This document shows positions 3,350 through 56,999 of a DNA stretch of 64,000 nt, one piece after another. The DNA lies in NCBI GenBank assembly GCA_905221615.1, contig CAJNDT010002779.1, positions 1,684,001-1,748,000 of the forward strand. The letters run 5' to 3'. Each line of letters begins with the position of its first letter. Position 1 is the stretch's first letter. The notes beneath the pieces are model-generated. The model was not told the DNA's origin. It searched no databases and saw only the letters and a program-made list of their open reading frames with translations. The position numbers and the translations under genes were made by a program. Source of the stretch: Symbiodinium sp. CCMP2592 (taxonomy: Eukaryota; Sar; Dinophyceae; Suessiales; Symbiodiniaceae).

Positions 3350-3437
3350 TATAAATCCTGCATTACCTCAAGGACCCATAAACTATGGGAATTATGGTAT
3401 TCCTGAGTATGGGTAATGCAGGATTTATATCATCAAC
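3350..3437. mobile_element. MITE family E (88 bp, terminal inverted repeats)
   Basis: Ends are GATGATATAAATCCTGCAT and ATGCAGGATTTATATCATC, perfect inverted repeats of about 24 bp including TACC/GGTA. The core reads 'AAGGACCCATAAACTATGG'. Other copies lie at 8372-8458 and 16097-16190, with a core fragment at 11640-11697. Confidence 0.9.
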
Positions 3438-6792: not shown

Positions 6793-8045
6793 GCCCTGAC
6801 GAGGATGGCACCTACAGCTTCTTCGGTGTCGTGAAGTCCTACAACGAGAACAAGGTACTGGGCCTCGCTTCTAGCAGTTGGGCTCAGGTCTTTGGTGCGA
6901 CATTCGTAGGGGGGGGAGGGTTGGGAGGACTAATTAGAACCGAAAACAGGGGGTTATAGTGTAACGGTATTCGGATCCTTGACAGTTAGAATAGGGTCTT
7001 GGGGGTATGTATTCTACTAAACGTAGAATACAAGGACTAAACCGACTATACGTTGCTAACATCACCAGTCACTTAGTCCCCTACATGTCGGGTCTCTTGC
7101 TTAGCCTCGGCGGTTAGCTCGATGAAGTGGTAGACTTGAGGTCATGATAAACAATGGAGTCAATGCCTCAGGGTTTAGGGCCTAGGATTCAGGGTTGCAA
7201 GCCTAAGTTCATGTCTCAAACCCTCGGCATCCTTGCATTGAAGCCCGAGGCTAGCGCCTTTCGAACATCTTGCCGCTGGGTACGTATGCTTAAGGAAGAT
7301 TCCAAGCGCCCGATGACGGAGGATATTCAATTTAAAGACGTTTAATATAGGAGCCCCAATAATTACCTATACTATTTTGGGGGTTCCTATTGCAATTATA
7401 GTATGGTTGGCCCCAAAACCATCTTCTGTTGTTTAAGGCCCCTCTATTCGGCTTCTGTGGGGAAGACTGCTCTTCTGTTGTTTAAGCCCCTCTATTCGGC
7501 TTCCGTGGGGAACACAACACTTCATTGCAAGGACAATCGAGCGAGTTCGCGCTGCACCAAGTAATCACCCCGCATAGTTACCCAGGTGGAGGTTGAGAAT
7601 GCGGATTCTCAATTCCAATAATACTACTCATACTGCTACTACTAGTAATAATAACAATAGTAATAATCATATACAATAATAATAACAATAATAATATTAA
7701 TAATAGCAATAGTGTAATAAAATAATATCTCCGGGATGCCGATTTCGAGCAACCCTTGCGCACGCCCGTTTCTGCAGCTCGGTAGAGCACAGACAGCCAG
7801 GGATTTGGTTTCCTTGGCTGCGATGCCGCGATGAACATCTTTGGCAAGGACGTCTTCTTTATGAGGCGCGGGTTGCTTTTTGCGAAGTTCGGTTGCTGCT
7901 TGCTGGTTTTTTGTCTCATCAGCTCACAAAGTCGGATTTTGGAGATGCCGTCATGAATAGGCCGAGAGGCCAAGTTCAGCTTGAAATCGGGACCAGGGAG
8001 GCCCTCGTGTCGCAGAGGGACATTGAATTTGTGCAATCGATCTAG
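6793..8045 (+). CDS. Cold-shock-domain protein, split over at least three exons
   Basis: Exon 1 (to 6854) reads DEDGTYSFFGVVKSYNENK and ends at AAG|GTACTG. Exon 2 starts after CCAG at 7801 and continues GFGFLGCDAAMNIFGKDVFF. Joined in phase this gives the classic CSD core 'G-V-V-K-S-Y-N-x-x-K-G-F-G-F ... DVFF', the RNA/DNA-binding beta-barrel of cold-shock/Y-box proteins. A third exon, from about 7923 (after TCATCAG) to TAG 8043-8045, reads KSDFGDAVMNRPRGQVQLE and matches the 'GDAV...V.FE' last strands. The exon 2/3 junction (about 7860-7922) is not resolved: frame changes and a GC donor near 7865 is possible. The 5' limit is also uncertain. CSD proteins are the most abundant putative nucleic-acid-binding family in dinoflagellates. 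A microsatellite and a family A MITE lie in intron 1. Confidence 0.7.
7345..7450. mobile_element. MITE family A copy inside the CSD gene intron
   Basis: Left arm TAATATAGGAGCCCCAATAA, interior CTATACTATTTTGGGGGTTCC and GCAATTATAGTAT, right arm TTTAAGGCCCCTCTATTCGG. The right arm is followed by a partial duplicate (7464-7502), so the 3' end has been copied once more. Confidence 0.8.
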
Positions 8046-8371
8046 GAGGCTACACAAGCGCACCGTCAAAAACCCACCTTGCTCAAAGGCCCAAGACTTC
8101 CAGCACACATCACATCCCTAAATCCTAAACCCCAAACCCTAATTCTCAAACAACCCGAAACCCTAATCCTGCTTGCGAGGAGTCAAGTTCCGCAAGGGCT
8201 TCAGACGGGTGCCCAGGTGATGTTCAAGGCCCGGCCGGTCTCGGTACCAGGCGATCTTCAAACGTCAAGAGGAGTCCTCAGACTTAGAGGAGGGCTTTGG
8301 GCTATGCTTCACTGTGACTTTGTTTAGGAATCCTCAGCGTGATTTTTTCTATTCAGCGAAAGAATTTAGGT

Positions 8372-8458
8372 GTTTTCCTGCATTACCTTAATGACCCTAA
8401 ACCATGGGAATTATGGTACATTCCTTATTATGGGTCATGCAGGATTTATATCATCAAC
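8372..8458. mobile_element. MITE family E copy
   Basis: Left arm CCTGCATTACC (outer TIR worn), right arm ATGCAGGATTTATATCATC, core 'CCCTAAACCATGGGAATTATGG'-like as in the 3350 copy. Confidence 0.8.
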
Positions 8459-8737
8459 CGTTCGGGTCCGGTTGGTTCCAGGATGCCGCGTTAGGAGTCT
8501 CGCAAAAAGGCTTCATGTCCTCGCCGGTTTAGGGTATGAAGGGTTTAGGGTTGAAGGTTTAGGGTTTAGGGTTTTTTCCGCAACTACCGAGAGCCGATTT
8601 CGAGACGTTTGCGCAATGCGTTGAAGCAACTTCCCATGCTGAAGCTTGTTCCCAAATTTTCCGGGCAATGTTGAAACAATGATAGTTTAATAGAGCCCCC
8701 AAAGCCGGTTCCATTATTAAGACCCTTACAGTAAAAG

Positions 8738-8830
8738 CCAGAAAGTTGGAATATGATTATCCTAAACCCTTTATGGTAAATTATAGGGTATCCTACCCTG
8801 AAACCATATTCCAACTTTCTGGAGTTCCCT
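8738..8830. mobile_element. MITE family F copy
   Basis: GCCAGAAAGTTGGAATATGA at the left and CATATTCCAACTTTCTGGAG at the right form an inverted repeat. The interior carries TTTATGGTAAATTATAGGG, also found at 21880 and 33903. Confidence 0.9.
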
Positions 8831-9261
8831 GTACATCATTTGCAAAGTAGTCGCTTCCAGCTGCAAGTGAGGCTCGGAGGAGTTCTTTTGGTAGCTCCGT
8901 GAAGGGTTCCCAAGACCTGTGGCGAAGTTCCCCTGGAGCATTAGTTCTTGCGACCCAAATTGCCGTAGCTCACGCCAAAGTTTGCATCCTCAGTCCCCCA
9001 AACCCTGAATACATGAACCGTATTATAAACCATAAGCCTTCAATGCCTGAGGCCATACACCCCTGGACCAAACCCCGAAACGCTGCAGGTCTCAACAGGG
9101 AGCCTTTCTGTAGAGTTTTGGCTTGCTTCCTTGCGAGCAGCGGCGTAGCTCAGCCCTGGTCTTTTGATCTGTAAGCCAGTAGCCGGTTTAGGGTTTAGGG
9201 TTTAGGGTCACCTTCTCGTACAGGCTCTGTTTGTTTTGTGCTTGCTTACGCTTGACCGGGC

Positions 9262-12200
9262 ATGCTCAACGCCTGCTGCGTCGCAAGGGCGCCAGACCTT
9301 TTAAGGAGCTATGATGCGAGCCTTCACGACTTGGAGGACTTTGCTGAGGAGCACCTCGCTCTGGCTTTAGAGCATTTTGCTATAGTCTCCATTGTGGTTC
9401 CTTTTTTTTAGATCTTTTAGGATCCTATAGTTAAAATTGGCTAAACCGGAAAAAGGAACTACAACGGTGACTTAGATAGGGGCTCTGTTGCAATTCTCTT
9501 GGTCTCCGCAACGCCGGCCATGTCCCCGGAGCTGGACCTTAAACATCAAGCTCTGAACCCTAAACCCTGAACCCTATAAACCCTAAACCTTAAGAGCATC
9601 ACACCCCTGAGGCGATTCCCTATGTATGTGGTGCCCGTGGAGACCGCATTGCTTATGCAGGAGTTGATGCCGCACGAGGCGCTGGAGAAGCAAAGGGTTA
9701 AGGGTTCAGGATTGTTAGGGTTCGCGGAATTGTTTGGGGTTTAGGGTTCCGGAAGACTCTGGTATATAGCAAGAACAAAGTTTCGTCATGATCAACCATC
9801 ATGAGGCAGCATTCTCTGCAGTTCTTGTAGCAGCATCGTCATGGTAGAGGGTGTTCATGGTCCTGGATTGGCTGTTGAGTAAAACATGTAGGACCCTTGC
9901 AGTAACCCTTCAAGGAGCCCTCTGCCAATGGTTGGTTTGGGGGCTCCTTATCATAATTATTGTAGAATATACCCCCCAAACCCTATTCTAACCATGAAGC
10001 CCCTTCCATTATAGATTCCTACTATAGATCCCTTATAGACCCCTTTAAGGTTCCCTATTCATTCTAATTATTAAGGCCCCTACGCTACGGGCGTATCATC
10101 CGGCAAGGCGCTCTTGAAAGATGGGACGCTGCTGGAGTTTGACGACAACCGGGGGAATGCCATGCGTCTTTGTCATAGTTGGGTAGCATTTTACACTTTT
10201 ATGGGTGCCGAAACCCACAACTGAATAGAAGTTTACATCTCCTATAAGCCCTAAACCCTCGACCCCAGACTTTATTCACATCTTGATTACGATCCCAACC
10301 CTGGACTCTAAACCCTAAACCCCTAAACCCCCCCGACCCTTGGACGCAAGGAAACGGGCGTTGCATTAAAAAAAAAGCCCTAAACCCCCAAACCCTTAAC
10401 CCCTAATAGCCTGGACTAGGTTTGTGTCGCATCAGTGGGCTGGTGAGCACCATCCAGACCCCGGGATGGCTCAGTTTAAGGAGCTTGATAGGGCTTTTAG
10501 AGGGTTTTTTATAGGGTTTTTGGAGGGTTCTATAGGTTTTCATAGGCTTTCATAGGGTTTTTATAGGGTTTTTAAAGCGTTTTTAGAGGGTTTTAGAGGG
10601 TTTTGTAGGGCTTTTTATAGGGTTATGTAGGGGGGGCTTATGGGGTGTAGAGGGAGGGTTTATAGGGTTTACAGGGCTGATAGGGTCTACACGGTTTAGG
10701 CTTGCGCGCCTAAAAAAAACCACCGCTCGAAATGTTGACGACGAGGAAGACAACGATGATGATGACAATTACGATGGTCACGATGATATCGATGGCGATG
10801 GCGATGATGATAACGATGATGATAACAATCATGGTAGCAATGATGATGACCTAGCGATCTGGCAAAGGTGACTGTGCAAAGACCTTTTGCCCCATACCTT
10901 TTCCACCCACAAACCTCAACAAACTTGCCGCGACCTTCAAAGTCATCGGCCCCACCAGTGTTTTCGCCTTCTGCCGTAAGACTAGCTTTGCAGCCCAGGT
11001 CCGGAGAATAAATTCAGGCCGGCTTTTCCCAGCACACAAAAAGCTCACTGCTCAACACATTGATGACGATGATGATAACGATGATGATGAGAATGATGAA
11101 GATGATGGTGATATCGATGGTGGCTGTGAGGATGATAGCGATGTTGACATCGATGATGCTAGCGCTGATGGTCGCCTAGGGCGCCCAGAAAACTGGACAC
11201 GAAATCGTGTCCCGTTTTTGCTTCTGCCACAATACCGCTGGTGAAGGTCAAAACGTGCGATTTTGCTGCGCCTGCCACACTTTTGTACACTTCCCTCGGC
11301 CGCTCCTCTGTAGGTTTTGTCTTCACGGTGGTTTTTTTTAGGCGCGCGCCACGGTTTAGGGTGAGTTTGGTTTGCATAGACCCAGGGTGACATGGTTCAA
11401 GGTGCTGGTTTTACGGCTTCAGGTTTGGCTTCGTGTGCGAATGATGATCAATGTTATTCCTCAGGGTTACTGATCATATCTGATCTTCCTAATACGTACG
11501 ATGTGCCACAAAAACCCTACACTAGGCATTGCGGCCCCTGTCGAGGAGCTGCAGGTGTCCTTGAAGAACGTGATGGCTGGTACCGGGATGATCTCAGGCC
11601 CAAAGGGTCCAAGTACTGAATATACTTCTGGGGCCAAAACAAATCCTGCATTGCCTGAAGGAGAATTATGCTATATTCCCTATTATGGGTAATGCATCAC
11701 TATTATGGTACTTGGGTCTCTTTGGGAGGTACTGCCTTCGAGCTCTATGCCGGTCAACAAAGCGTGATTTCCTCGGAGGATCTCTTCGTTCGCCCTCTCT
11801 TCATTTGGTACGACTCTAGGTTCCCAAGTACTAACCCTTTTGCCCTTTGTATCTTGGGGTCTCCTCATTAAAACAGTATATGAAGGGTCTCCTTATGTTT
11901 GAGGGGGTACTGGCTAGTGGCGCACCAAGGACTTCTTCTCTTGTCCACAGTGGTCCGACAGCCATCGGGCACTGGCTATCGGCTCGATCCCTGCTTACGT
12001 CGAACGCTGCCGGTTTTTCGTGGCTCTTTGCCCCCTTATTTGGCATTCCACTTCAGGGAAGCCCCTCACCACAAAGTCATGGACAGATCGAGGTTGGTGC
12101 AGACGCTGGGATCTTGTTATTGAATAAGAACGCAGGTCAAATTGCCCACATAAGTAGATGCTTGGGCAGTGTAGGGTTGAAGACGGCAGCTGAAGCAAGT

Positions 12201-15200
12201 GTAGCATGGAAACATAGTAAGTCATATGCTTTCTCTAATTGTCATGGTAATATCAATTTCGGAGAAACTCCTCATAAAGACTCCTCATAAAGACAAAAGC
12301 CCAGGACTTGAAAGAGCCGCACGACGGCTCAGCAACACAGAAGATACGAGGGTCATCGAAATACGAAGTGCGCATCAGCTGGCTGTCGCCCCTGTTTTCA
12401 ACTGGGTCTTTCACCCCGTTGGAGAAGGTGAGTTCACTCTGGAAGAAGACAGGCGTCACCAGGCTGTTCAGTGGTATATACACTTTTGTACTTTCAGGTT
12501 TCTGGGTTCCTATTACAAAATACGAAGCCTAAAAAAGTATATTTCCCAGTGGGTTACTGAACAGTCTAGGTCAGCTTGCACCGGTGCTTCGAAGCATGGT
12601 AAGAAAGAAGCTTCATTTCCACCTGGTGCGGGGCAACTGGCATGACTACCGCCTCATGCTGAACCTACAGCGGGTGCAGTACCGAAATCTCCCCATCAAT
12701 CCGATCGAAGATACTTATTCGCTGTAAACTCAACTTTTCATTTTTTTGGGGTTCTTGTAGGGTAGTCGATTCTGAAAGTTTCAATGTTTATTCCCTTGGG
12801 TTTTGGGCCAGTGAGGATATGATCCCGGGCTTCGATTCCGATCTTCAGGATCCGGCTGCCTACGCAGCAGCGAGTTTCCTGCACCAAAACGGCTTCCGCT
12901 CCGTAGATCAGCGGAGCCCAGAAGGTGGGCTTGATATGGATCCACACACATGCATATGCATATACATATATATATATATATATATAGCTGTATATATACA
13001 TATACATACATATATATATATATACACATATTTGATGTACATATACATGTATATACGCAGGATTATATCTATATATACATGCATACAAATACATCTACAT
13101 ATATATATATATATATATTCTCATCGTTTTGTGTGCACATAGATGCGTTGATAGGTTGGACTCCTATCTGCTACGCGGCCGTGGATGGTAATCCTCTATT
13201 GCTCTCGGAACTTCTGGAGATGCGAGCGGACGTCAACGATCAGGCGTGTAGAGATGTTGCACCGGCTTCCCTCCAGGAATTGCTTATTGTTGCCAATGTT
13301 TTGGGGTTCCTCATTGTAATTGTAGTATAATGGGCCCCACAACCTATTCTAATTATTGAGGCCCCTATATTACACGTGGCTACAAGCCTACCAGTTTTGC
13401 GTCTTTGCGCGACCCATGTGCCGTTGCTACAGCTGTTGCTGCTACTGCCATGTGTACTGCTACAACTATTACAAACACTATTGCGACAGCACCACCACCA
13501 CCACCTCCAACAACTACAGCCACACCCACACCAACACCAACACCACCAACACCACCACCATCACCACCACCACCAACACCACCACCAACAACAACAACAA
13601 CAGCAGCAACAATACCACCACCACCACCACCACCAACAGCAGCAACAAGAACAACAACAGCAGCAACAACAACAACAACACAAGCAACAGCAACAGTACC
13701 AACAACAGATACCACAGCAACAGCAACCACAGCAACAACTTGTACAACTACCACTGAAATTTCTTCTGCTTGTACCACCACCGCCCATTTTACCTCTACC
13801 ACCTAACCACTATCACTATACTACGACGACCACCACCACCACCACGACGGGACTGCGACTTCAACCACGACTACGACCACTGTTACGACGACGATGACTA
13901 CGACAGCTACTGGGACTACGACCGACTGCGACAACTACGACGACTACGACTACGAAGAAGACGGCTACTACTACGTTTCTTCCGCAGCTACTGCGACTAA
14001 TTCGCGCTACATTATTTGTCAGCGAATGAGGAGTCGGATGAGGAGGAGGCGGTGATGAAACGACGCGGCGAAAACGATTGCTTCTCCTGCTTCTGCTGCT
14101 GCTGCTTCTGCGGGAATACTCAATGTTAAGCCACGATCAATTGCTTTAACGAGTCTTAACACGTAAACCCTAAACCCTCCGATGGATAGGTATGGGAGAC
14201 TGAAGCTCTGCCACTCGGCTGTCGTTGCTTTCGGGATTTTTTCTCGTGATTTGGGCTTTTTTGAGTACTTAGAGGATCATGGGACTTAGTAAGTAGGTTA
14301 TAACTAGGGTTATAAGTCCCCTAAGTGGGGTTATCCTACTTATAACCTACTTCTAACCTTACTTACTAAGTCCCATGATCCTCCAAGTAGGGTATGAGGG
14401 CTCATGAGTCCGGGGTTTGGTTTCTTTTTGCGTAACTCCTACAGCCGGGGCACGGTGGGAAACCCGATTCTTGAAGTCTCGTTCGTCCCGGGAATGTTCA
14501 GACCCCAGAGAGCCCAACACCCCTTAATTAAGCATTATACATTAAATAGTAAGGGGCTTAATATTATGGTTTAAGCTGTATTCCTTAATTGAAGGATATT
14601 GGGCTCTCTGGGACTATCCTGTGCACTATGAGTCTCCGGTCCCAAAATCGGAGGCCTCAAGTTCGAAGCCCGAGACGTGGGACTGTATAATAACCCCGTG
14701 CTGTTAAGTTTAGTCTTGACATAGCCGTGTTCAGTTTTGATGGTTTTCCGTGGAAAAACGATAAGACGAAAATGAAACGATAACGCATTTTTCGTGGTAA
14801 AACGATAACAAGAAGACAAAACGATAACAACGTTCCGGAATAAGGATTTTTATATGGTGTTATTCTACAACCCCACGTGGACAAAAAAACAAACGCATCC
14901 AAATGAACCCGAAACTGGTATCTTGAGTCTCCGGGGTCTTAAGTACTTAGAGGATCCTGGGACTTAGTAAGTATGGTTATAAGTAGGCTATAGTTAGGAT
15001 AACCCCACTTAGGGGACTTATAACCCTAATTATAACCTACTTACTAAGTCCCATGATCCTCTAAGTAGGGAGCAGTTCAGGTTCCACTTCGCACCGAAGA
15101 CACCCCTCCTGCATATCTGTGCGGCGCTGTCGCACCACGAGGCGTCGGGCCTGGCAGTCGGGTTTTGGTTTAGAAAGGGTTCAGGGCATGGGGTTTAGGG

Positions 15201-22352: not shown

Positions 22353-22704
22353 TGTTTCTGAATGCTATCGTTGTTAATTGTTATTAGTATTGTGGTGATT
22401 CTCACTATTACTGTGACAATTATTACTATTCTTGTCATTATGGTTAAATCTTGTTATTTCTATGGTTATGGTTTTCGTAAATGTTATGGTCATATACCCC
22501 CAAGTCGTAGGAATCAGGTCAGGCTAAAGAGGTAGACCCGAAGCCCTCATCGCCGTCATCTGCCTGGCAGACTGGTCAATTTGCAGCCGCGGCGTTTCTG
22601 AATTGGGAGTTTAAGAACATGAGGGACCCTGCTTGTACTGGCCTTCGTCTAGTCCACGAGGTAGTTTCTGAACAAAAAGAACCCGGCCACGTGCCTCAGT
22701 TTAA
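21085..22704 (+). CDS. Scattered exon candidates, possibly the 3' part of the ankyrin gene or a separate gene
   Basis: Four stretches have coding-like composition. 21085-21178 reads LLAPEVLRGCPDDLEKVEK. About 21412-21505 reads PVFLLKAETQSLDLYHEEQG. About 22031-22208 reads VFEQRDPLSMCNEESEQKSK and ends in FTVFH plus TGA at 22206-22208. 22523-22704 begins after GGTCAG and reads AKEVDPKPSSPSSAWQTGQF, continuing to GHVPQF. No family is recognised and the phases between them do not all match, so these could be two genes. The last stretch stops inside or just before a 112-bp MITE at 22705; a good donor (CACGAG|GTAGTT) lies 40 bp upstream. Confidence 0.3.
21506..21612. mobile_element. MITE family H copy 1
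   Basis: GGGAGTTTCCGAAAATTAGG at the left and CCGGTTTTCGGAAACTACC at the right. The core has GGTCCTTATAATAAGGATCC. Copies 2 and 3 are at 21702-21806 and 48513-48622. Confidence 0.9.
21702..21806. mobile_element. MITE family H copy 2
   Basis: ATGGGAGTTTCAGAAAATAG at the left and CATTTTCGGAAACCCCCAT at the right, with core GGATCCTTATTATAAGGACC. It lies only 90 bp from copy 1. Confidence 0.9.
21880..21983. mobile_element. MITE family F copy
   Basis: GGAACTCCAGAAAGTTGGAA at the left and TTCCAACTTTCTGGCTTTTA at the right. The interior AGAATTTACCATAAAGGGTT is the inverse of the 8738 copy. Confidence 0.9.
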
Positions 22705-22816
22705 CTAGGATGCCCAGTAGTACCCTTATTCCCCTTTTGTAGTCCTAGGTTCCTTGTAAAGTTACCCAATACCAAAAAGAGAGGCCTTTTTATTCTTAGG
22801 TTACTGGGTATCTTAG
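22705..22816 (+). mobile_element. Family I element (112 bp), same family as the lipase introner
   Basis: Starts CTAGGATGCCCAGTAGTACC, ends GGTTACTGGGTATCTTAG, flanked by TTAA on both sides (22701-22704 and 22817-22820). The length is exactly that of the element at 56350-56461, and most of the sequence is shared (GTAGTACCCTTA, TAAAGTTACCCAATACCAAA, CCTTTTTATTC). The ends are inverted repeats and begin CT / end AG. Confidence 0.9.
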
Positions 22817-22917
22817 TTAAGAAAGTTGATTGACCTAGGTGCCTCAGGATTCGAGGCCCTTTGGCTCCTTGGACTGACTACCCTCATTGGCGGCACAAAC
22901 CCTCACACCCCCAAATC

Positions 22918-25009: not shown

Positions 25010-25633
25010 CTACTTTAAAGCGTCCAAAATCTCCTGCACTTGGCGTTCCAATCCACCCCGTGGAGCCTGACCATACTTGCGATGGGCACCGCAACTGGTG
25101 AGCGCTTTCTCCAAAGAACACATGACATGTGTTAGGTCAGCACAACAAGCCAGATGCAACTTCACGGTGTTCTTGTCCCAAGCCTTTCTGAACCGAGCGA
25201 TGTGGACCCTAGCCGCAATCACATTGGGATCGCTCCCTTGACCAGTGATTTCCAGGAAATGGGCCTTCAACGTGTTGCCATCTTCCTCACTAAGCGGGCA
25301 TTCCGCTGCAGCTTTGACCAAGGCTGCCCACACATGACTATGAACAGGTCCCAGTGCGTCAATTGACTTCTGATCACCCTTGGCATTCTTGAGCTTGTCA
25401 GCGTGATTCTTGGCAGCATCGATAGCCGCAACCACCAGTCCACTGTCCCGGGGTAGCAAAGATGTTCTCAACACTGCCGCCTGCATTTCACGAATCTCTA
25501 AAGCATTCTTGAGGCACAGCTTGGCAACAAGTTCGAGCAACTTGTCCGCATCACTGGCATTGGCATCTCCCGGCTGCGTCCTACTCATCTTGGTCGGTCT
25601 GGCATCCTCTTGGGCTTTTTGAAACCACGACAT
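25010..25633 (-). CDS. Second ORF of the LINE, downstream of the reverse transcriptase
   Basis: 207 residues from ATG 25633 (MSWFQKAQEDARPTKMSRTQ) to TGA at 25010-25012. It starts 37 nt after the stop of the polymerase ORF, in the +1 frame relative to it. Composition is normal for a soluble, largely helical protein (KLLELVAKLCLKNALEIREM), and I recall similar stretches in other dinoflagellate predicted proteins. No catalytic motif is visible. A gag-like or RNA-binding role would be usual for a LINE, but such an ORF normally lies upstream. The same frame remains open without stop back to 29452, so the product could also be made by +1 frameshifting. Confidence 0.6.
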   Translation of the reverse strand: MSWFQKAQEDARPTKMSRTQPGDANASDADKLLELVAKLCLKNALEIREMQAAVLRTSLLPRDSGLVVAAIDAAKNHADKLKNAKGDQKSIDALGPVHSHVWAALVKAAAECPLSEEDGNTLKAHFLEITGQGSDPNVIAARVHIARFRKAWDKNTVKLHLACCADLTHVMCSLEKALTSCGAHRKYGQAPRGGLERQVQEILDALK

Positions 25634-25670
25634 GCTTGGCAACTGCGGAACGAGGACGAAGGCAAAGGCA

Positions 25671-28600
25671 CTAGTTGGAAATCTCGGGCAAATGTTGGGC
25701 AATGCAGGCGTGAACCGCTTCCAACGTATCATGTTCAGCATTGCAAAATGGGCATACCAGCAAGCAAGGCAACGTGACCGAATGATGAGTTGCACTACCC
25801 ATGCCCGTACAACGTTGTAACCGCAAGCTGGTTCGTATGTGATTCTGTGTAACACGCACACTTGCGAAGACATGTTTGCAAAATGGACACTGGTTGCAAA
25901 TAGCCGCCCGCACATGAGGATGCACATGACCGTGAGAACCACCCACAGTACACCGAATGTGCATGGCAAGAGCCTGTGGTGACCTAAACGTTGCTGTACA
26001 CTGCTGGCCATTTGCATCCGTACAATCACAAGTATACATAGAGCCTTGTTCATCAACCTCCTGTGGAGCCTGTGGGATACCAAAAGCGTGATCCGTTGTA
26101 CCCGGCGGCGGGATGCGAACACCAAGATACTCAGCCCGCATCTCACCACAGTCCACGTGCAGAAAATCCTGCCTAAATGTGGTAAAGACCAATGAAAATC
26201 TTTGCCCAATGCCGAATAGCCTCTCAGATGCAGTGTCCATGCGGAGCAAAGCAGTAACGTCTTCTTTGAATTGCAAGGCCCAGGGATTGGCATACTCTGA
26301 AACGGATCCGTCAGCACAAAGTGTATCATGAGCATCATAAGACAACCTCCCAAATACAGCCGCAAGCAATGCAGTATGAAGCGTCGGATTTCTGGCCACC
26401 GATTGCCAATACTGTAATCGCCGAATCCTGAGCTCAATCTTTGAGGGTACCATACGCAATAGTTTGAAGACATCTTCATCCGGCATCGCCTTATACACCA
26501 TCCCGTCATCTGTAGGAGTCTTTTTGCATGCCGCACCCCGCAATATCTTCCTTGCATAGCGCAACACAGTCGAGTCCAGCCTCGCGTATTCAGTCTCAGA
26601 TAGAACCAGAGCTTCAAGACCTGACAACGCCGCACCTCGCACCATCGCCTGAAAGACAACATTTGCAGGCCTTCGCAGCGTAACGCTAGACCAAAACTTC
26701 CCGAGCGCATAATAGCCTTGCTTTGCCGCTGCTTGGCGTGCTTCAATTTCTCTAGTGTTCGTCCCTTTGAAATGTCTGAAGGAACCAAGGTACTTCGCCG
26801 ATGTTTTCGTACTCCCAGGCAGTATAGCATCTTTGTAAACATCCAAATAGTTTTCGCGTGCTCCAGCTCCCGCAAAAAAGGACACATGCTCTTGCTTGTC
26901 AATGTTCTGGCCCATATCAACACCCCGCAATTCACGGTCAAGTACATCATTCGAATTTGTGAGCTGCATATGAAGCTCCTCACTGTTCGCAGCCACTGTA
27001 CACCGTGCAACATCATCGGCATAGCCAGTGAGGGAAACATCATTGCGCTCCCCAGTGATCGGATCGCAAACCATAAGCTCGTCTTGCTTAGTTTCACTCC
27101 ACCACTTATCCAATACTGGATGGTAGACCTGAAGAAAATGAGAACAAGCAAAAGAATCGCCCTGCAACCCGCCAGAGCCAGGACAAACACACAAGTTCCC
27201 ATCACGAGCATTGACTGACATATATGCACGACCATGCCGCTGCTGAAGCAGATTACGGTCAGATTCACTGGCAACCTCATCCACTGCCCTTGACAGACTT
27301 TCGCGTGCTGGAGAGGGAAAAGCATTGGCAATATCATACAATGAAAGTGTATGCGAAATCTTGTGTTGTCGAAGCCGATGTTGTAACACAGCTTGTTGCA
27401 TAATCGGATCGATACGAGATTTGCCAGATATGTAACCAGAAGCATACGGCCTGTGCGCATGGTTGTGGCCCCGCTTCCAAAGTGCGGAGAAAAACCATTT
27501 ACCAAACACTTCCAGATTATTGATAAGCCTGATGCCGAAAGGTCCTGGTTTGTTGTTCTTCTTGTCGATCTCAATGGCTTCACTCTTTTGCCACAGTGCT
27601 GGTGCCCTTCCATACACCCGGACTGACAACAACAAGCGAAAAAGCACGAATTGAAAATACACAGAACAGCGAGTACCCACTTCATATCCAAGACCACGCC
27701 TACCCCTGCGCCACTGCCATGCTGGTAACAAGAGTTGCCTCCATACCTCTGCTGGAATCCCCCACGCTGGAACAGATTTTCGTAGCTTGCACTTCCTAGC
27801 ATGTTGTAACAAGTCACGGTGGTCCCTTCTGGCGAGTGGTATGGCTTCCTCAACTGACATACACTTTGCATCATTAGATATGGCTGCTGCTTGGATAGCA
27901 TCCCAATGAACCACTGTAGCGGAACAACCACCATCTGGACCAGATTGCTGCAAGTGACGCACCCACTCGTCCCTACCAGGCCGTACCAAACATGCGGAGT
28001 CATATCTTCGCTTTTTTGGTCCAAGTTTGCGTCCCGACAGAAGCCTAGACAACTTCCACACCTGGTGCATGTCTCTTGTTGACCACGCATACTGAAACTC
28101 ACCAAGTAGCTGTGTCTTTGCATGCAAAGCATCTCGTTTTGTGAGCAGATCCACTGCTTTTCTGTGTTTGAAAAAACATGCCAGCTTGCGCCAACCTTGA
28201 AACACATCTGACAACGCCTGCCGCAAGAAAATAGTGTTAAAACCATCGCTGCATGAACCGCGCTTGCCCAACACATGAGAATGATGATTGACCATGTTGG
28301 ACTTAGCATGCAGCATAGCATCGATTGCATCTGCGGTGTCCGACGGTCTGCTGCGCAACTTTTTGGGGGGTATCTCATACATTTCAGATGTAGAGCGTCG
28401 TATAGCACTAGCAAAAGAGTCCCATAGTGCATCAGGGTTGGGCAACGTGTGTTGCAAGGTATTGGTGACAACACTACTGAGATGGCTATCAACAACCTGC
28501 AGTAACCGTTCTCTCTGCGTCCCATGAATTGCGTCATCAACCATTCGGTCACGATCCCACAATGCGGCTTGTCCCTCATCAACTTGTCCGCGGTACTGCA

Positions 28601-29429
28601 AAGCAACATCAATCTCAATCTGTAAAGGGAAATGATCACGCCGTGCCATGTCACAAATAAGTTGCAAACGATCCCCAGCTCGATACTGAATATGGCACCT
28701 ACGAACACGTGAAAGCGCAGTCCCCGGCACACATATGAAATCAATTCTCGTATTATGTCGTCTAGGAGGTGGTCCATAATAAGTTGCACCAACGTCATAG
28801 AATGTGTTGACCGCTGCCAAAAACTGCGACTGAAGTAGCTCCACGAACAAACTCCCATTGAAATTCTGCAATTCCGGCTTGTACCTGCCAATACCATCAT
28901 GAATCGCTGGCACCACTTCTCCCCCAGGCCCTCGAACAAGACCCACATGTGCATTGCCATCCAGACATAAAATGGGCATACAGCGTGCTGGTAGCTTCTG
29001 AACGAAGGACTCCACATACTTCCAAAGTCTGGTGTTTCGTCTCTGTTGAGCGGCTTTTTGAGGTTCAGTGAACATGTACACACATATGATGCAAATATCA
29101 AGGTCGCCACGCTGCAGCCGTAGCGCCCCAAACCTCCCCTGATATTCCAAAGGAGGAACAAACACTCGTGAAACATTTCGATGTTTGAAGACACGTGTCG
29201 CCAATATGATGCTGACTCCTTCCGCCTTGTGTTGGGCTCCAGATGCTGCACCCCAGTCATACCACACATGCTTAGCAGATGGTGTGACAGTACATAGTTC
29301 TCCAGAATGCCGTTTAGCAGTTCCTTGCAAACATACAACATGTGAACGGCCCAATTCGCCCAAAATTGCTGCTCTGCGAACCTCATTGTTTGCAGACAGT
29401 GGGTTATAGCTGCTGATAAGAAGATGCAT
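25671..29429 (-). CDS. LINE endonuclease/reverse transcriptase polyprotein
   Basis: 1252 residues, ATG at 29429 directly after an in-frame TGA, no internal stops. Residues 1-290 are an APE-like endonuclease (EEP fold): SSYNPLS, VVCLQGT, LDGNAHVG, NTRIDFI and RRDHFPL are the usual motif positions. About 600-900 is the reverse transcriptase: LYDIANAF (motif A, near residue 700), GGLQGDSFACSHF (motif B) and GYADD at 802-806 (motif C, catalytic aspartates). The last 150 residues carry three Cys/His clusters (CDC..C..H, CPFCKHVF...H, CPFCNAEH...H), probably nucleic-acid-binding zinc fingers. The protein nicks the target and copies its own RNA there. The normal Glu of the 'LQE' motif is Gly here (LQGT). 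Intact frame suggests recent activity. Confidence 0.9.
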   Translation of the reverse strand: MHLLISSYNPLSANNEVRRAAILGELGRSHVVCLQGTAKRHSGELCTVTPSAKHVWYDWGAASGAQHKAEGVSIILATRVFKHRNVSRVFVPPLEYQGRFGALRLQRGDLDICIICVYMFTEPQKAAQQRRNTRLWKYVESFVQKLPARCMPILCLDGNAHVGLVRGPGGEVVPAIHDGIGRYKPELQNFNGSLFVELLQSQFLAAVNTFYDVGATYYGPPPRRHNTRIDFICVPGTALSRVRRCHIQYRAGDRLQLICDMARRDHFPLQIEIDVALQYRGQVDEGQAALWDRDRMVDDAIHGTQRERLLQVVDSHLSSVVTNTLQHTLPNPDALWDSFASAIRRSTSEMYEIPPKKLRSRPSDTADAIDAMLHAKSNMVNHHSHVLGKRGSCSDGFNTIFLRQALSDVFQGWRKLACFFKHRKAVDLLTKRDALHAKTQLLGEFQYAWSTRDMHQVWKLSRLLSGRKLGPKKRRYDSACLVRPGRDEWVRHLQQSGPDGGCSATVVHWDAIQAAAISNDAKCMSVEEAIPLARRDHRDLLQHARKCKLRKSVPAWGIPAEVWRQLLLPAWQWRRGRRGLGYEVGTRCSVYFQFVLFRLLLSVRVYGRAPALWQKSEAIEIDKKNNKPGPFGIRLINNLEVFGKWFFSALWKRGHNHAHRPYASGYISGKSRIDPIMQQAVLQHRLRQHKISHTLSLYDIANAFPSPARESLSRAVDEVASESDRNLLQQRHGRAYMSVNARDGNLCVCPGSGGLQGDSFACSHFLQVYHPVLDKWWSETKQDELMVCDPITGERNDVSLTGYADDVARCTVAANSEELHMQLTNSNDVLDRELRGVDMGQNIDKQEHVSFFAGAGARENYLDVYKDAILPGSTKTSAKYLGSFRHFKGTNTREIEARQAAAKQGYYALGKFWSSVTLRRPANVVFQAMVRGAALSGLEALVLSETEYARLDSTVLRYARKILRGAACKKTPTDDGMVYKAMPDEDVFKLLRMVPSKIELRIRRLQYWQSVARNPTLHTALLAAVFGRLSYDAHDTLCADGSVSEYANPWALQFKEDVTALLRMDTASERLFGIGQRFSLVFTTFRQDFLHVDCGEMRAEYLGVRIPPPGTTDHAFGIPQAPQEVDEQGSMYTCDCTDANGQQCTATFRSPQALAMHIRCTVGGSHGHVHPHVRAAICNQCPFCKHVFASVRVTQNHIRTSLRLQRCTGMGSATHHSVTLPCLLVCPFCNAEHDTLEAVHACIAQHLPEISN

Positions 29430-29470
29430 TTCGGATCAGTCTCTGCGACCATGCTTTGCGCCCCCTTGCT

Positions 29471-30310
29471 AACTCTTTTCGAGACATCTACAGCCCATGA
29501 CTAGTCCAGCTTGCGCAAAAGGGGCTATACGTACAGCATACGTACATGCATGCCTTTGCACATGTGCCTTGAAGCCACTTGCAGGCCGAACAGAAAGAGC
29601 GGGGTCCGCAAGCTGTCGGGGAGGTCCAGGCACGTCGTCCAGGTAATCGACTTTTCGGTTTCGGGTAACAGGGGGGGTGAGTTCTGGATGAACGAGGGAA
29701 TTTCTGCGATCTTACAAGAAAGCTGTAGCAAGAACACTGCATTAGCACAAGGCCTCTGTGAAGTGGAACAATGACTTTTCCCCTTTCCAATACAATTTCT
29801 GACTAAAGGTGTATAGGCCATGCTTTTCATTACCGTGTCAGTGGATGCTGAAGTGGATGCATGGGTGACGATGTGCTTCTGTGGACCTTGCGAGCATTGA
29901 AAAGCCGCAATGACGGATGCATCGGGTTTAGCCATCTAGCTTCTGCGGACCCAATCGCCCTTAGTTTGAGGGGTCCTGCATCTGGTGGTAAGTCGATTTG
30001 GCAGGTCTTGAAAGCTTAGCAGTAGAGCTTTAGCAGCAGAAGCAGATGCTCATTCGCGCACCAAAGTGACACCCTAAACCCTGAATGTTTATATCGCAAG
30101 TAGCCCCGCGCTGTAAACCACAAAGTTGGAAACCCTGAATCCAGAGACCCTCGACTCTAAGGTAGTATGGGGATTGAAGACTTCAAGACTATCAACATCC
30201 CCCTTACAGTCCCTATATATAAGTGTTGCATGATTGACCCAACCTTCAACATCCTATGTGGCTTCATAAGGCCTCTATGTTACCCAGGCTTGTTGTTATT
30301 GTGTCGGCGC
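29471..30310. other. Spacer between LINE and Gly/Met-rich gene
   Basis: No convincing exon. Frames of 100 and 136 codons on the - strand (29488-29935) could be LINE 5' sequence but show no recognisable motif. Confidence 0.4.
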
Positions 30311-54155: not shown

Positions 54156-54666
54156 TAGGCTTAGAGTTTGGATTTTTTTGGAATGGTCAATTTTGTTTGT
54201 TTGAGGTGTTGGACTGCAAGTTGGGGGGTTGAAAGGTTGGGGAAGGGACACATTTCCGCAACTCCCCTGAGCCTAAACTCAAGCCGTCTGACTGATCTTG
54301 TTTACCTATCAGACTTGAGACTTAGGCCCATAAACCTTTGGACCATATAAACCCTATAATCCTAAGTCCTAGACCGTAATGCTCGAAGCTGCTTCCAAGT
54401 GTCAATCCTTCAATCCAAATGTCAAGAGGGGGATTGAAGGCCTTTTCGATGCATGTTCCAGTGTCTTAGCATCCAGAGGCTCGAACACTGCGGGACGCAG
54501 GCTCTAGGTGTGCAGAGCTTGATCCGGACCACCCGCAAGTTCCACACCTCTATCTTCAGGAGGTTCGAAGCTGACTAGGCGTTGAAGTTCTGAGCTGAGA
54601 GAAGGTCCGGCGATCAGGCACTTTTTCAAGCTCCTGAAGTGGAGCTGGGAACCATCAGTGGACGCC

Positions 54667-56999
54667 ATGGGCCAACAACTTCAGCCAGCAGGAAAAGCTT
54701 TAGCCATCGACCTCCCTACAGGCATTGATGCAAGCAAGGGATGGAAATATGATTCCGTCTGCAATGTGAATGGAAAGGCAGTGGCGGTGCCGTGCTATGC
54801 TGAGAAGATTTTGGTTGTGGACCCTGCAACTGGCCGGGCTTCGGCCATCGACCTCCCTGCAGGCATTGATGCAAGCTGGGGCGGTAAATATGATTCCGTC
54901 TGCAATGTGAATGGAAAGGCAGTGGCGGTGCCGTGCTATGCTGAGAAGATTTTGGTTGTGGACCCTGCAACTGGGCAGGCTTCGGCCATCGACCTCCCTG
55001 CAGGCATCGATGCAAGCAAAGATTGGAAATACCGTTCCGTCTGCAATGTGAATGGCAAGGCAGTGGCCGTTCCGGCACATGCTGAGAAGATTTTGGTTGT
55101 GGACCCTGCAACTGGGCAGGCTTCGGCCATCGACCTCCCTGCAGGCATCGATGCAAGCAAAGATTGGAAATACCGTTCCGTCTGCAATGTGAATGGCAAG
55201 GCAGTGGCCGTTCCGGCACATGCTGAGAAGATTTTGGTTGTGGACCCTGCAACTGGGCAGGCTTCGGCCATCGACCTCCCTGCAGGCATCGATGCAAGCA
55301 AAGATTGGAAATACCGTTCCGTCTGCAATGTGAATGGCAAGGCAGTGGCCGTTCCGGCACATGCTGAGAAGATTTTGGTTGTGGACCCTGCAACTGGGCA
55401 GGCTTCGGCCATCGACCTCCCTGCAGGCATCGATGCAAGCAAAGATTGGAAATACCGTTCCGTCTGCAATGTGAATGGCAAGGCAGTGGCCGTTCCGGCA
55501 CATGCTGAGAAGATTTTGGTTGTGGACCCTGCAACTGGGCAGGCTTCGGCCATCGACCTCCCTGCAGGCATCGATGCAAGCAAAGATTGGAAATACCGTT
55601 CCGTCTGCAATGTGAATGGCAAGGCAGTGGCCGTTCCGGCACATGCTGAGAAGATTTTGGTTGTGGACCCTGCAACTGGGCAGGCTTCGGCCATCGACCT
55701 CCCTGCAGGCATTGATGCAAGCAAAGATTGGAAATATTTTTCCGTCTGCAATGTCAATGGCAAGGCAGTGGCGGTACCGTGTAATAGTGGGAAGATTTTG
55801 ATCGTGGAGCTGTCGCAACCCACAGTGTTCAGCCTCAGGCTACACCACAGCACTGTCCAAAATACACCCGTTTTCGCCGAGCTGGTGGCAGCTTTGCTGA
55901 GCTACTGGATGTACACGGACGAGCCGGAACCCCCACATCTCGAGCATGCTTCCATGCAAGTTCATCGAGTGGTTCAGCCAGGCGAGTTTGGTTCAGCCGT
56001 GAAGATCGCCAGCGTCACTGCTGACTTACTAAGTGGCAAGGTGCTGTACCTCGTCTTCAAGGGTACTTCCTACATCCTGGATTTTCTGAGCTGGAATCTG
56101 GAGCTGAATCACGCCATGACCCAAGATCCCGACTTCTTCGTGCACGGCGGAGCAGCAGGCACGCTTCACGCGGCAAGCTTCTGGCTTGAGGACGGCTTGT
56201 TTCAGCGGCTGAAAGAGGCAAGGGAGAACGGGGTGCGGAGGGTCGTCTTCACAGGCCATTCCTTGGGAGGAATGTATGCAGCATTGACGTTCTACATGCT
56301 TTGGAAGAAGTTGGATGCAGCTTCGCAGGATTTTGTGTCCCTTCTGTCGCTAGGATGCCCAGTAGTACCCTTACTCCCTTTTTGTAGTGCTAGGTTCCTT
56401 ATAAAGTTACCCAATACCAAAAAGGGAACCCTTTTTATTCCTAGGTTGCTGGGCATCCTAGGTCGGGTTTGGACGTGCGGTGCGTCAGCTTTGGCTCTCC
56501 GATGGTTTTCGGCGGTGGCTCCCAACAAGCACAGGGATTCATGGACTTTGCGGCGGAGCGAGCCGTGAACTACATCAATGAGAACGACCCCTGCCCGCGT
56601 GCCTGGGGCGCCATCAATCTCCGGCAGTTTGTGGAAGTGGCGACCAAAAGCGTCCAGAAGGGATTGGTCGACGAGCTGGGCAGCGTCAAGGGGTTTGTTG
56701 CCTCGCAGGTCGTTGCAGCAGCAGCACAACAGGTACTAAACCGATCGGACTTTTACCTGTTGGAGGATTTCGCTAAAAGGTATCAGCACTTTGCAGAGCT
56801 AAAGGTCCTGAGTTCTCAGCGGCAGGTCACTCGCTGGAAGGAGTTCCGGCTCACACCAGATTGTCTGAAAGACCACTCGGTGATGGCTTACGTGACCCGG
56901 CTCTTCGATGCCTATGACGACAGCCGACCCGAGTGCCATGTTCACACCCAGATTGCCCGAGTCGAGCAGTCTCGGACCGTACTCAGGGGCGGAGCCTAG
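54667..56999 (+). CDS. Repeat-propeller protein fused to class 3 lipase, interrupted by one introner
   Basis: Exon 1 is 54667-56345 and exon 2 is 56462-56999; spliced 2217 nt, 738 residues. Residues about 12-380 are eight copies of a 47-residue unit (AIDLPAGIDAS...VCNVNGKAVAVP...KILVVDPATG), probably blades of a beta-propeller. Residues about 385-738 are a lipase_3-type alpha/beta hydrolase: GHSLGG with nucleophile Ser532, then SFGSPMVFGG, NENDPCP (Asp602) and DHSVMAYV (His698) as the likely triad. The reaction would be hydrolysis of acylglycerol or phospholipid esters. No signal peptide or membrane segment is seen. The start is the first ATG; upstream codons are open back to a stop at 54583 but contain no ATG. 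Without removal of the 116-nt intron the frame would run on to 56568 with a wrong sequence and lose the Asp and His. The end is TAG 56997-56999. Confidence 0.85.
54700..55812 (+). repeat. Eight tandem 141-bp repeats coding the propeller blades
   Basis: The string TCGGCCATCGACCTCCCTGC recurs at 54841, 54982, 55123, 55264, 55405, 55546 and 55687, exactly 141 bp apart; a first, diverged unit starts at 54700. Units from 54982 to 55686 are practically identical at the DNA level, including third codon positions. Long antisense frames here are shadows. Confidence 0.95.
56346..56461 (+). other. Introner: family I element forming the only intron of the lipase gene
   Basis: Element 56350-56461 (112 bp) starts CTAGGATGCCCAG and ends CTGGGCATCCTAG, perfect 13-bp inverted repeats. 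GTCG occurs before (56346-56349) and after (56462-56465). Intron 56346-56461 is GT-AG: the GT is the first half of the left GTCG and the AG is the end of the element. Splicing restores LLSGLDVRCVSFGSP, the expected lipase sequence, with no extra or missing residue. Confidence 0.9.

Follow-up and report, generated by a model that had tools for sequence, protein, structure and literature searches.

Four-base junction repeats and short inverted-repeat elements at introns of an SHQW/ankyrin gene and a lipase gene in Symbiodinium

The SHQW/ankyrin gene and its intron junctions

In this study we describe introns of two genes in a 64,000-nucleotide stretch of the genome of Symbiodinium sp. CCMP2592 (contig CAJNDT010002779.1, positions 1,684,001 to 1,748,000, labelled G000:C2779:1684001-1748000), which we call the window and whose first base is position 1 below. 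An SHQW/ankyrin gene has 11 introns that were placed by protein homology and together span 7866-13154, and a second gene, made of tandem repeats and a Lipase_3 domain, is interrupted by one intron of interest. Each gene contains an intron that consists of a 4-bp target site duplication (TSD) and a short element with terminal inverted repeats (TIRs), copies of which are found elsewhere in the genome. Whole-genome searches were run on the 1.098-Gb assembly of 5383 contigs.

The closest homologues of the SHQW gene are P0001 (97% identical at 51% query coverage), P0002 from S. necroappetens (87%, 48%) and P0003 (87%, 51%); P0005 is the homologue from S. natans. Homology fixes the mRNA and the cut was set at AG followed by G; since the homologues are predicted proteins, the junctions are of homology grade and not of RNA grade. 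Introns A to D and 1 to 3 rest on P0002, whose tblastn matches gave the upstream exons and hence introns A to D. Intron 4 rests on the wider family (RGWCRLERAA in P0004-P0008), introns 5 and 6 on P0001 and P0003, and intron 7 on ankyrin homologues. When all 11 introns are removed a single open frame runs from MNIFGKDVFF to the first ankyrin repeat. The first-pass annotation had listed six of these introns, so that its run lacked the four upstream (A to D) and intron 7 downstream, and it had described the donors as GT or GA only; we found five GC, four GA and two GT donors. Every intron ends in AG, and each of the 11 donors, like each of the 11 exons that follow, begins with G.

The model of intron 2 had to be corrected. 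Its donor is GCCC at 11598 and its acceptor lies at 11728/11729, whereas GTCC at 11607 had been proposed; that donor is unsupported, because P0002 reads GTKMISGTAFELY at the place where it would insert three residues. An alternative intron at 11580-11728, with a perfect GTAC repeat and a shorter protein, was ruled out since P0002 keeps GTKMIS. As a separate observation, P0001 starts with residues that correspond to the translation of 12226-12304, the end of intron 4, and its model therefore seems to start within the orthologous intron.

Six introns had been credited with the same 4-mer at the start of the intron and of the next exon. On re-reading, four of these repeats are exact (GAGC 10481/11546, GACT 11812/11930, GTCA 12455/12570 and GATA 12710/12816), GACG/GACT at 12102/12305 agrees in three of four bases, and the corrected intron 2 has no 4-bp repeat (GCCC/GTAC, two of four). 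Over the whole gene the match is perfect in 5/11 introns (C, 1, 3, 5 and 6), reaches three bases in A, 4 and 7 and two bases in B, D and 2. The chance of 1 in 256 per junction that had been assumed is too strict a null and overstates the signal, since both sites have an invariant G: when donors and acceptors of the gene are paired wrongly, 3 of 110 pairs are identical. Even so, positions 2-4 of the 4-mers match at 24/33 places as against 9.8 +/- 2.7 after re-pairing, a value reached by 1 of 200,000 permutations (0 of 200,000 in a first run), and five perfect pairs were reached in 17 of 200,000 (25 in the first run). Leaving out intron 5 still gives 21/30 matching positions (12/200,000), and the six introns listed originally, with intron 2 corrected, give 15/18 against 7.0 +/- 2.1 (554/200,000). 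The junction-repeat signal in the SHQW gene is real and above chance.

Inverted ends were assessed by local alignment of the first 30 bases of each intron with the reverse complement of its last 30, against 200 dinucleotide shuffles each. Two introns reach significance, intron 2 (z 4.9) and intron 5 (z 3.3, P 0.01), and intron 4 is borderline (z 2.2, P 0.05); no significant TIR was found by this comparison in A, B, C, D, 1, 3, 6 and 7. The earlier statement that several introns have inverted ends thus holds for introns 2 and 5, is borderline for intron 4 and does not reach significance for the other eight, and the 12/14 inverted bases reported for the ends of intron 5 were confirmed. Among the 11 introns a clear TIR and a perfect duplication coincide in intron 5 alone. 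For the intron of the lipase gene the same comparison gives z 5.7.

Table 1. Introns and elements described in the text; 4-mers are given as intron start/next exon start, with the number of matching bases
Feature	Position	Strand	Structure	Basis
Intron A	7866..9305	+	GC-AG, GCGC/GAGC 3/4	P0002 tblastn exons, spliced frame, TIR test
Intron B	9351..9611	+	GC-AG, GCAC/GCGA 2/4	P0002 tblastn, spliced frame
Intron C	9679..10107	+	GC-AG, GCGC/GCGC 4/4, TIR not significant	P0002 tblastn, spliced frame
Intron D	10164..10419	+	GC-AG, GCGT/GTTT 2/4	P0002 tblastn, spliced frame
Intron 1	10481..11545	+	GA-AG, GAGC/GAGC 4/4, TIR not significant	P0002 junction
Intron 2	11598..11728	+	GC-AG, GCCC/GTAC 2/4, inverted repeat CCCAAAGGGTCCAAGTAC	P0002 junction, TIR z 4.9
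Intron 3	11812..11929	+	GA-AG, GACT/GACT 4/4, CTAGG right after duplication, TIR not significant	
Intron 4	12102..12304	+	GA-AG, GACG/GACT 3/4, borderline TIR, CTGGG tips	
Intron 5	12455..12569	+	GTCA/GTCA 4/4, 115 bp = duplication + 111-bp element	
Left target duplication GTCA	12455..12458	+	serves as GT donor of intron 5	
Mobile element, body of intron 5	12459..12569	+	111 bp, tips CCAGGCTGTTCAGT...ACTGAACAGTCTAG, supplies AG acceptor	
Right GTCA copy	12570..12573	+	first bases of next exon	
Intron 6	12710..12815	+	GA-AG, GATA/GATA 4/4, TIR not significant	
Intron 7	12925..13154	+	GT-AG, GTGG/GTTG 3/4, mainly simple repeat	ankyrin-exon homology
112-bp element copy	22701..22820	+	element 22705-22816, flanks TTAA/TTAA, no G-type donor	
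Lipase intron	56346..56461	+	TSD GTCG 56346-56349 + 112-bp element 56350-56461; next exon starts GTCG	
CTAGG/CTAGA-tipped element	L011:665-739	other	TSD AAAC	
CTAGG/CTAGA-tipped element	L016:3797-3907		TSD TCTT	
CTAGG/CTAGA-tipped element	L020:6453-6564		TSD ATTC	

Two element families with 4-bp target duplications

A genome search with intron 5 gave 41 matches including itself (588 first-look candidates, 40 scored), and the 40 others are 86-89% identical to it. One of them is a partial copy. Of the 40, 39 start at query positions 2-8, 15 of them exactly at the element start, position 5, and 38/40 end at position 115, the last base of the intron. We read the flanks of intron 5 itself and of the 20 best among the other 40 matches, 21 copies in all. 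They are perfect 4-bp repeats in 17/21 (16/20 of the others), with three matching bases in two further copies and one in the remaining two; among mispaired flanks 0.5% are identical. Compared position by position, the flanks agree at a rate of 0.86-0.95 at exactly four places and at about the expected rate outside them, and the 17 perfect duplications comprise 16 different 4-mers. The tips are well kept, CCAGG on the left in 18/21 and CCTAG on the right in 19/21. As the 20 other copies are on average 96% alike, the family seems to have been active more recently, with intron 5 as one of its older copies. Judged from its ends, the element should be able to form an intron in just one of its two orientations, because in reverse it would end in CCTGG and offer no AG.

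The intron of the lipase gene was found by a scan for TIRs with TSDs. Excising it raises the Lipase_3 match from 40.8 bits (profile positions 2-105) to 52.5 bits (2-135) and creates the junction SLLSGLDVRCVSFGSPMVFGG. Of 33 homologues 30 were inspected: P0013, P0017 and P0020 closely preserve the stretch across the junction, with no gap, more distant homologues keep part of it, it is absent in P0014 and P0032, and several homologues cover one side only. The tandem repeats of this gene, eight units of exactly 47 codons each (SVCNVNGKAVAVP...), lie at 54586-55900, upstream of Lipase_3 and in the same frame.

A second copy of the 112-bp element within the window is 90% identical to that of the lipase intron, and the similarity ends exactly at the element ends. 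The genome search with the lipase intron gave 40 matches including itself (631 candidates, 40 scored), and the 39 others were all read; together with the two copies of the window they make 41 rows, or 40 when L040, whose flanks equal those of L039, is dropped. Perfect 4-bp flanks were found in 17/40 non-redundant copies (17/41 of all, 15/39 of the others), two of them the window's own. The flanks of the other copies among the 41 match in three bases (10 copies), two (4), one (8) or none (2), and mispaired flanks are again identical in 0.5%. Identity reaches 0.65-0.75 at exactly four positions and falls to background outside, the 17 perfect duplications are all different 4-mers, and 36/41 copies end in CCTAG on the right. 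The left flank begins with A in 15, C in 2, G in 11 and T in 13 of the 41, and therefore the element does not seek G.

The tips of the lipase and intron 5 families read CTAGGATGCCCAGTA and CCAGGCTGTTCAGT. Both consensus sequences are 112 bp long and identical at 62/112 positions without gaps; 13 of the first 18 bases agree and 14 of the last 18. Three differences between the tips (tip positions 6, 9 and 10) are mirrored at the other end of the consensus sequences. The ends thus change together, as would be expected if one transposase must bind both. The transposon piggyBac, whose only known target is TTAA, was considered and rejected because the targets here are not TTAA only: this 4-mer occurs in just 3/34 perfect duplications (the copy at 22705, L068 and L072).

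The general scan returned mostly low-complexity pairs, hence it is not evidence by itself; a full 4-bp match was seen in 38/4838 pairs, whereas five Markov sequences gave on average 3.2 of ~712. When the tips were constrained, 264 kb of the same contig (2600 N) gave 20 pairs, four of them with perfect flanks, and the next four bases outward matched in 0/20. These four have CTAGG/CCAGG tips and are 111-112 bp long. A search of 284 kb for facing tips (11/15 tip bases, perfect 4-bp flanks, at most 12 kb apart), as would enclose the transposase gene of an autonomous element, gave five pairs, the longest of 112 bp, and no transposase was found.

Origin of the introns

An insertion origin of intron 5 and of the lipase intron is well supported: each is a member of a family with many copies, and the copies at other sites are flanked by 4-bp duplications of unrelated sequence. 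Homology and frame place both copies as introns within coding genes, and in both families the target duplication has a fixed length. Both introns carry TIRs at the element ends, which were not significant in A to D, 1, 3, 6 and 7. Their 3' splice site lies in the element and their 5' site comes from the TSD, the donors GTCA and GTCG being the duplications themselves. We consider it very probable that at least some of the introns with 4-bp repeats arose as insertions of short non-autonomous DNA transposons with TIRs, i.e. introners. In the mechanism we propose, a putative transposase would insert an element of about 112 bp between staggered cuts, and repair would duplicate 4 bp of the target. 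The element ends in CTAG and would so bring its own AG acceptor; the duplication on its left would form the first four intron bases and, should it start with GT, GA or GC, might work as a donor of the dinoflagellate type. Splicing would then remove one duplication together with the element and restore the old reading frame exactly.

The first-pass annotation had proposed mass intron gain by related elements with a 4-bp target duplication. Gain of this kind stands for intron 5 and the lipase intron, and we infer that introns C, 1, 3 and 6 were also born by insertion. Membership in a family was found for one of the 11 SHQW introns (intron 5), and gain on a mass scale would be an extrapolation from it. 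What we show are two families, their exact element ends, their 4-bp duplications and restored frames at two genes.

Several observations weigh against the introner origin. Six of the 11 SHQW introns have no perfect 4-mer repeat. A significant TIR is present in just two of them, one of which, intron 2, lacks a duplication; conversely, C, 1, 3 and 6 have a perfect duplication yet no significant TIR. Among the lipase-family copies 23/40 have no perfect flank match. The left flank begins with a base other than G in 30/41 copies of the lipase family and in 18/21 of the intron 5 family; most copies therefore cannot be introns of this type, since they do not have the G needed by the donor. In 264 kb of the contig, a comparison read without its rows for intron 7, introns 4 and 6 matched only themselves; intron 5 also matched only itself there, though it is a member of a genome-wide family. 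Separately from these points, when flanks were joined, 1/40 lipase-family copies, the lipase copy itself, was open over the whole ~400 bp, and at ~200 bp several of the 21 copies of the intron 5 family were open, about what six frames would give by chance on a rough estimate. Openness of the frame is a weak measure because exons may be shorter than 400 bp, and the first base of the duplication was used instead.

Could the junction repeats be a by-product of the splice-site consensus, with G at the start, G after the end and exon bases that are alike near both sites? The universal G and the identical pairs among mispaired 4-mers would fit such an origin; re-pairing, however, keeps the consensus and loses the identity, and the duplications of the families are varied, with G first in only 11/41 and 3/21. 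We regard it as very unlikely for the gene as a whole, and for intron 5 and the lipase intron it is already contradicted. Even less credible is the idea that the run reflects the choice of the annotator, with splice sites slid until the 4-mers agreed. It is true that the first donor of intron 2, which has no support from homology, was set where three of four bases match, and that introns B and D, which had not been listed, match in two of four; with sites fixed by protein homology and the AG-G rule alone, however, 5/11 remain perfect.

A more serious alternative, which we hold to be possible but clearly less likely than insertion of TIR elements, concerns introns C, 1, 3 and 6. Their repeats might stem from another route of intron gain that leaves short direct repeats, such as a staggered double-strand break repaired with filler DNA, or from a class of introners without TIRs. 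Identical 4-mers without a significant TIR are what such a route would leave, and the signal stays when introns 2 and 5 are excluded (20/27 matches, 10/200,000 permutations). Introner families without TIRs have been published, with TSDs reported in 48.7% (printed 19/40) of non-ascomycete families lacking TIRs (Gozashti 2022, PMC9860276). On the other hand, the repeats of these four introns have the same length, 4 bp, as those of both demonstrated families, and old elements might lose the identity of their TIRs by mutation. In intron 3, moreover, CTAGG directly follows the duplication, and the search of 264 kb showed a weak similarity of the intron (78% over 45 bases, E 0.002) to a 112-bp CTAGG element flanked by the TSD ATTC. 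It is also conceivable, if rather doubtful, that both processes are at work: most SHQW introns would have been gained by insertion, many of them (C, 1, 3 and 6) through a second class or mechanism without TIRs that makes the same duplication, with the families of equal length running in parallel. Under this joint reading the 112-bp TIR families would retain the CTAG end and the AGT motif, and the intervening bases would change in step at both ends, so that new families with ends of their own would continue to arise within a single genome.

To return to introners, the origin of new introns is an old question, and the SHQW gene shows the answer that has been proposed, with the TSD as donor and the element end as acceptor. 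In S. microadriaticum introners have a 4-bp TSD and TIRs, take the 3' splice site from the element and the 5' site from the TSD (Gozashti 2022 PNAS, PMC9860276, Fig. 2B), and one example intron, 86725-86839, has 115 bp, the length of intron 5 (PMC9860276). We found no difference between the architecture given there and that of the present families. The same paper also sought autonomous elements that mobilise introners. For five dinoflagellate genomes Roy et al. 2023 (Curr Biol), as summarised in a 2024 review (PMC11453091), report that many introner families gave rise to introns by inserting recently; for P. glacialis the review counts 12,253 introns and 15 introner families with at least 100 each. 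The introner elements of Amoebophrya resemble ours in having direct repeats (3-5 nt) and inverted repeats (8-20 nt) at the intron boundaries and, in the published description, no transposase inside (Farhat 2021, PMC7789003). They differ in that the non-canonical introns there have no clear splice motif, whereas all 11 SHQW introns read G(T/A/C)...AG followed by G, and in that the position of the repeat relative to the inverted repeat is variable there and constant in the two families here. In Aureococcus, too, introns arise from short elements that carry direct repeats and TIRs (PMC9860276 Fig. 2F; PMC7789003); in the example given the TSD is 8 bp long and the transcript gains 12 bp, in contrast to 4 bp and exact restoration of the reading here (PMC9860276). 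The mechanism from transposon to intron is thus already published for Symbiodinium and the present introns are further instances, which leave the published picture unchanged. What is added here is a pair of families whose ends are exact and whose 4-bp duplications have been measured, and they can serve as models for counting introns born from introners.

Other elements in and around the window

Further elements of 75-112 bp with CTAGG or CTAGA tips and perfect 4-bp duplications (L011, L016 and L020 in Table 1) have differing bases between the tip and AGT, and they are probably more families of the same build. A near-perfect palindromic element of 98 bp occurs in two copies, at 14279-14376 and 14957-15054, with TIRs of 14/14 and 13/14; both copies are bounded by GATC, which may be a duplication or part of the TIR. 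Another short palindromic element, AAATCCTGCATTACC..., lies at 3353-3426; at several places within the 264 kb it is matched in part, and some of it is nested in intron 2 (~11639-11696). Rfam models found no family at gathering score over the window, and RNA hairpin folding of the introns, done without a control, was not used as evidence. On the - strand, 25010-29500 holds two long overlapping open frames of 1496 and 1254 codons. The 1254-codon frame has no Pfam match and contains a YADD stretch, a motif typical of reverse transcriptases, and the region is therefore likely a retroelement.

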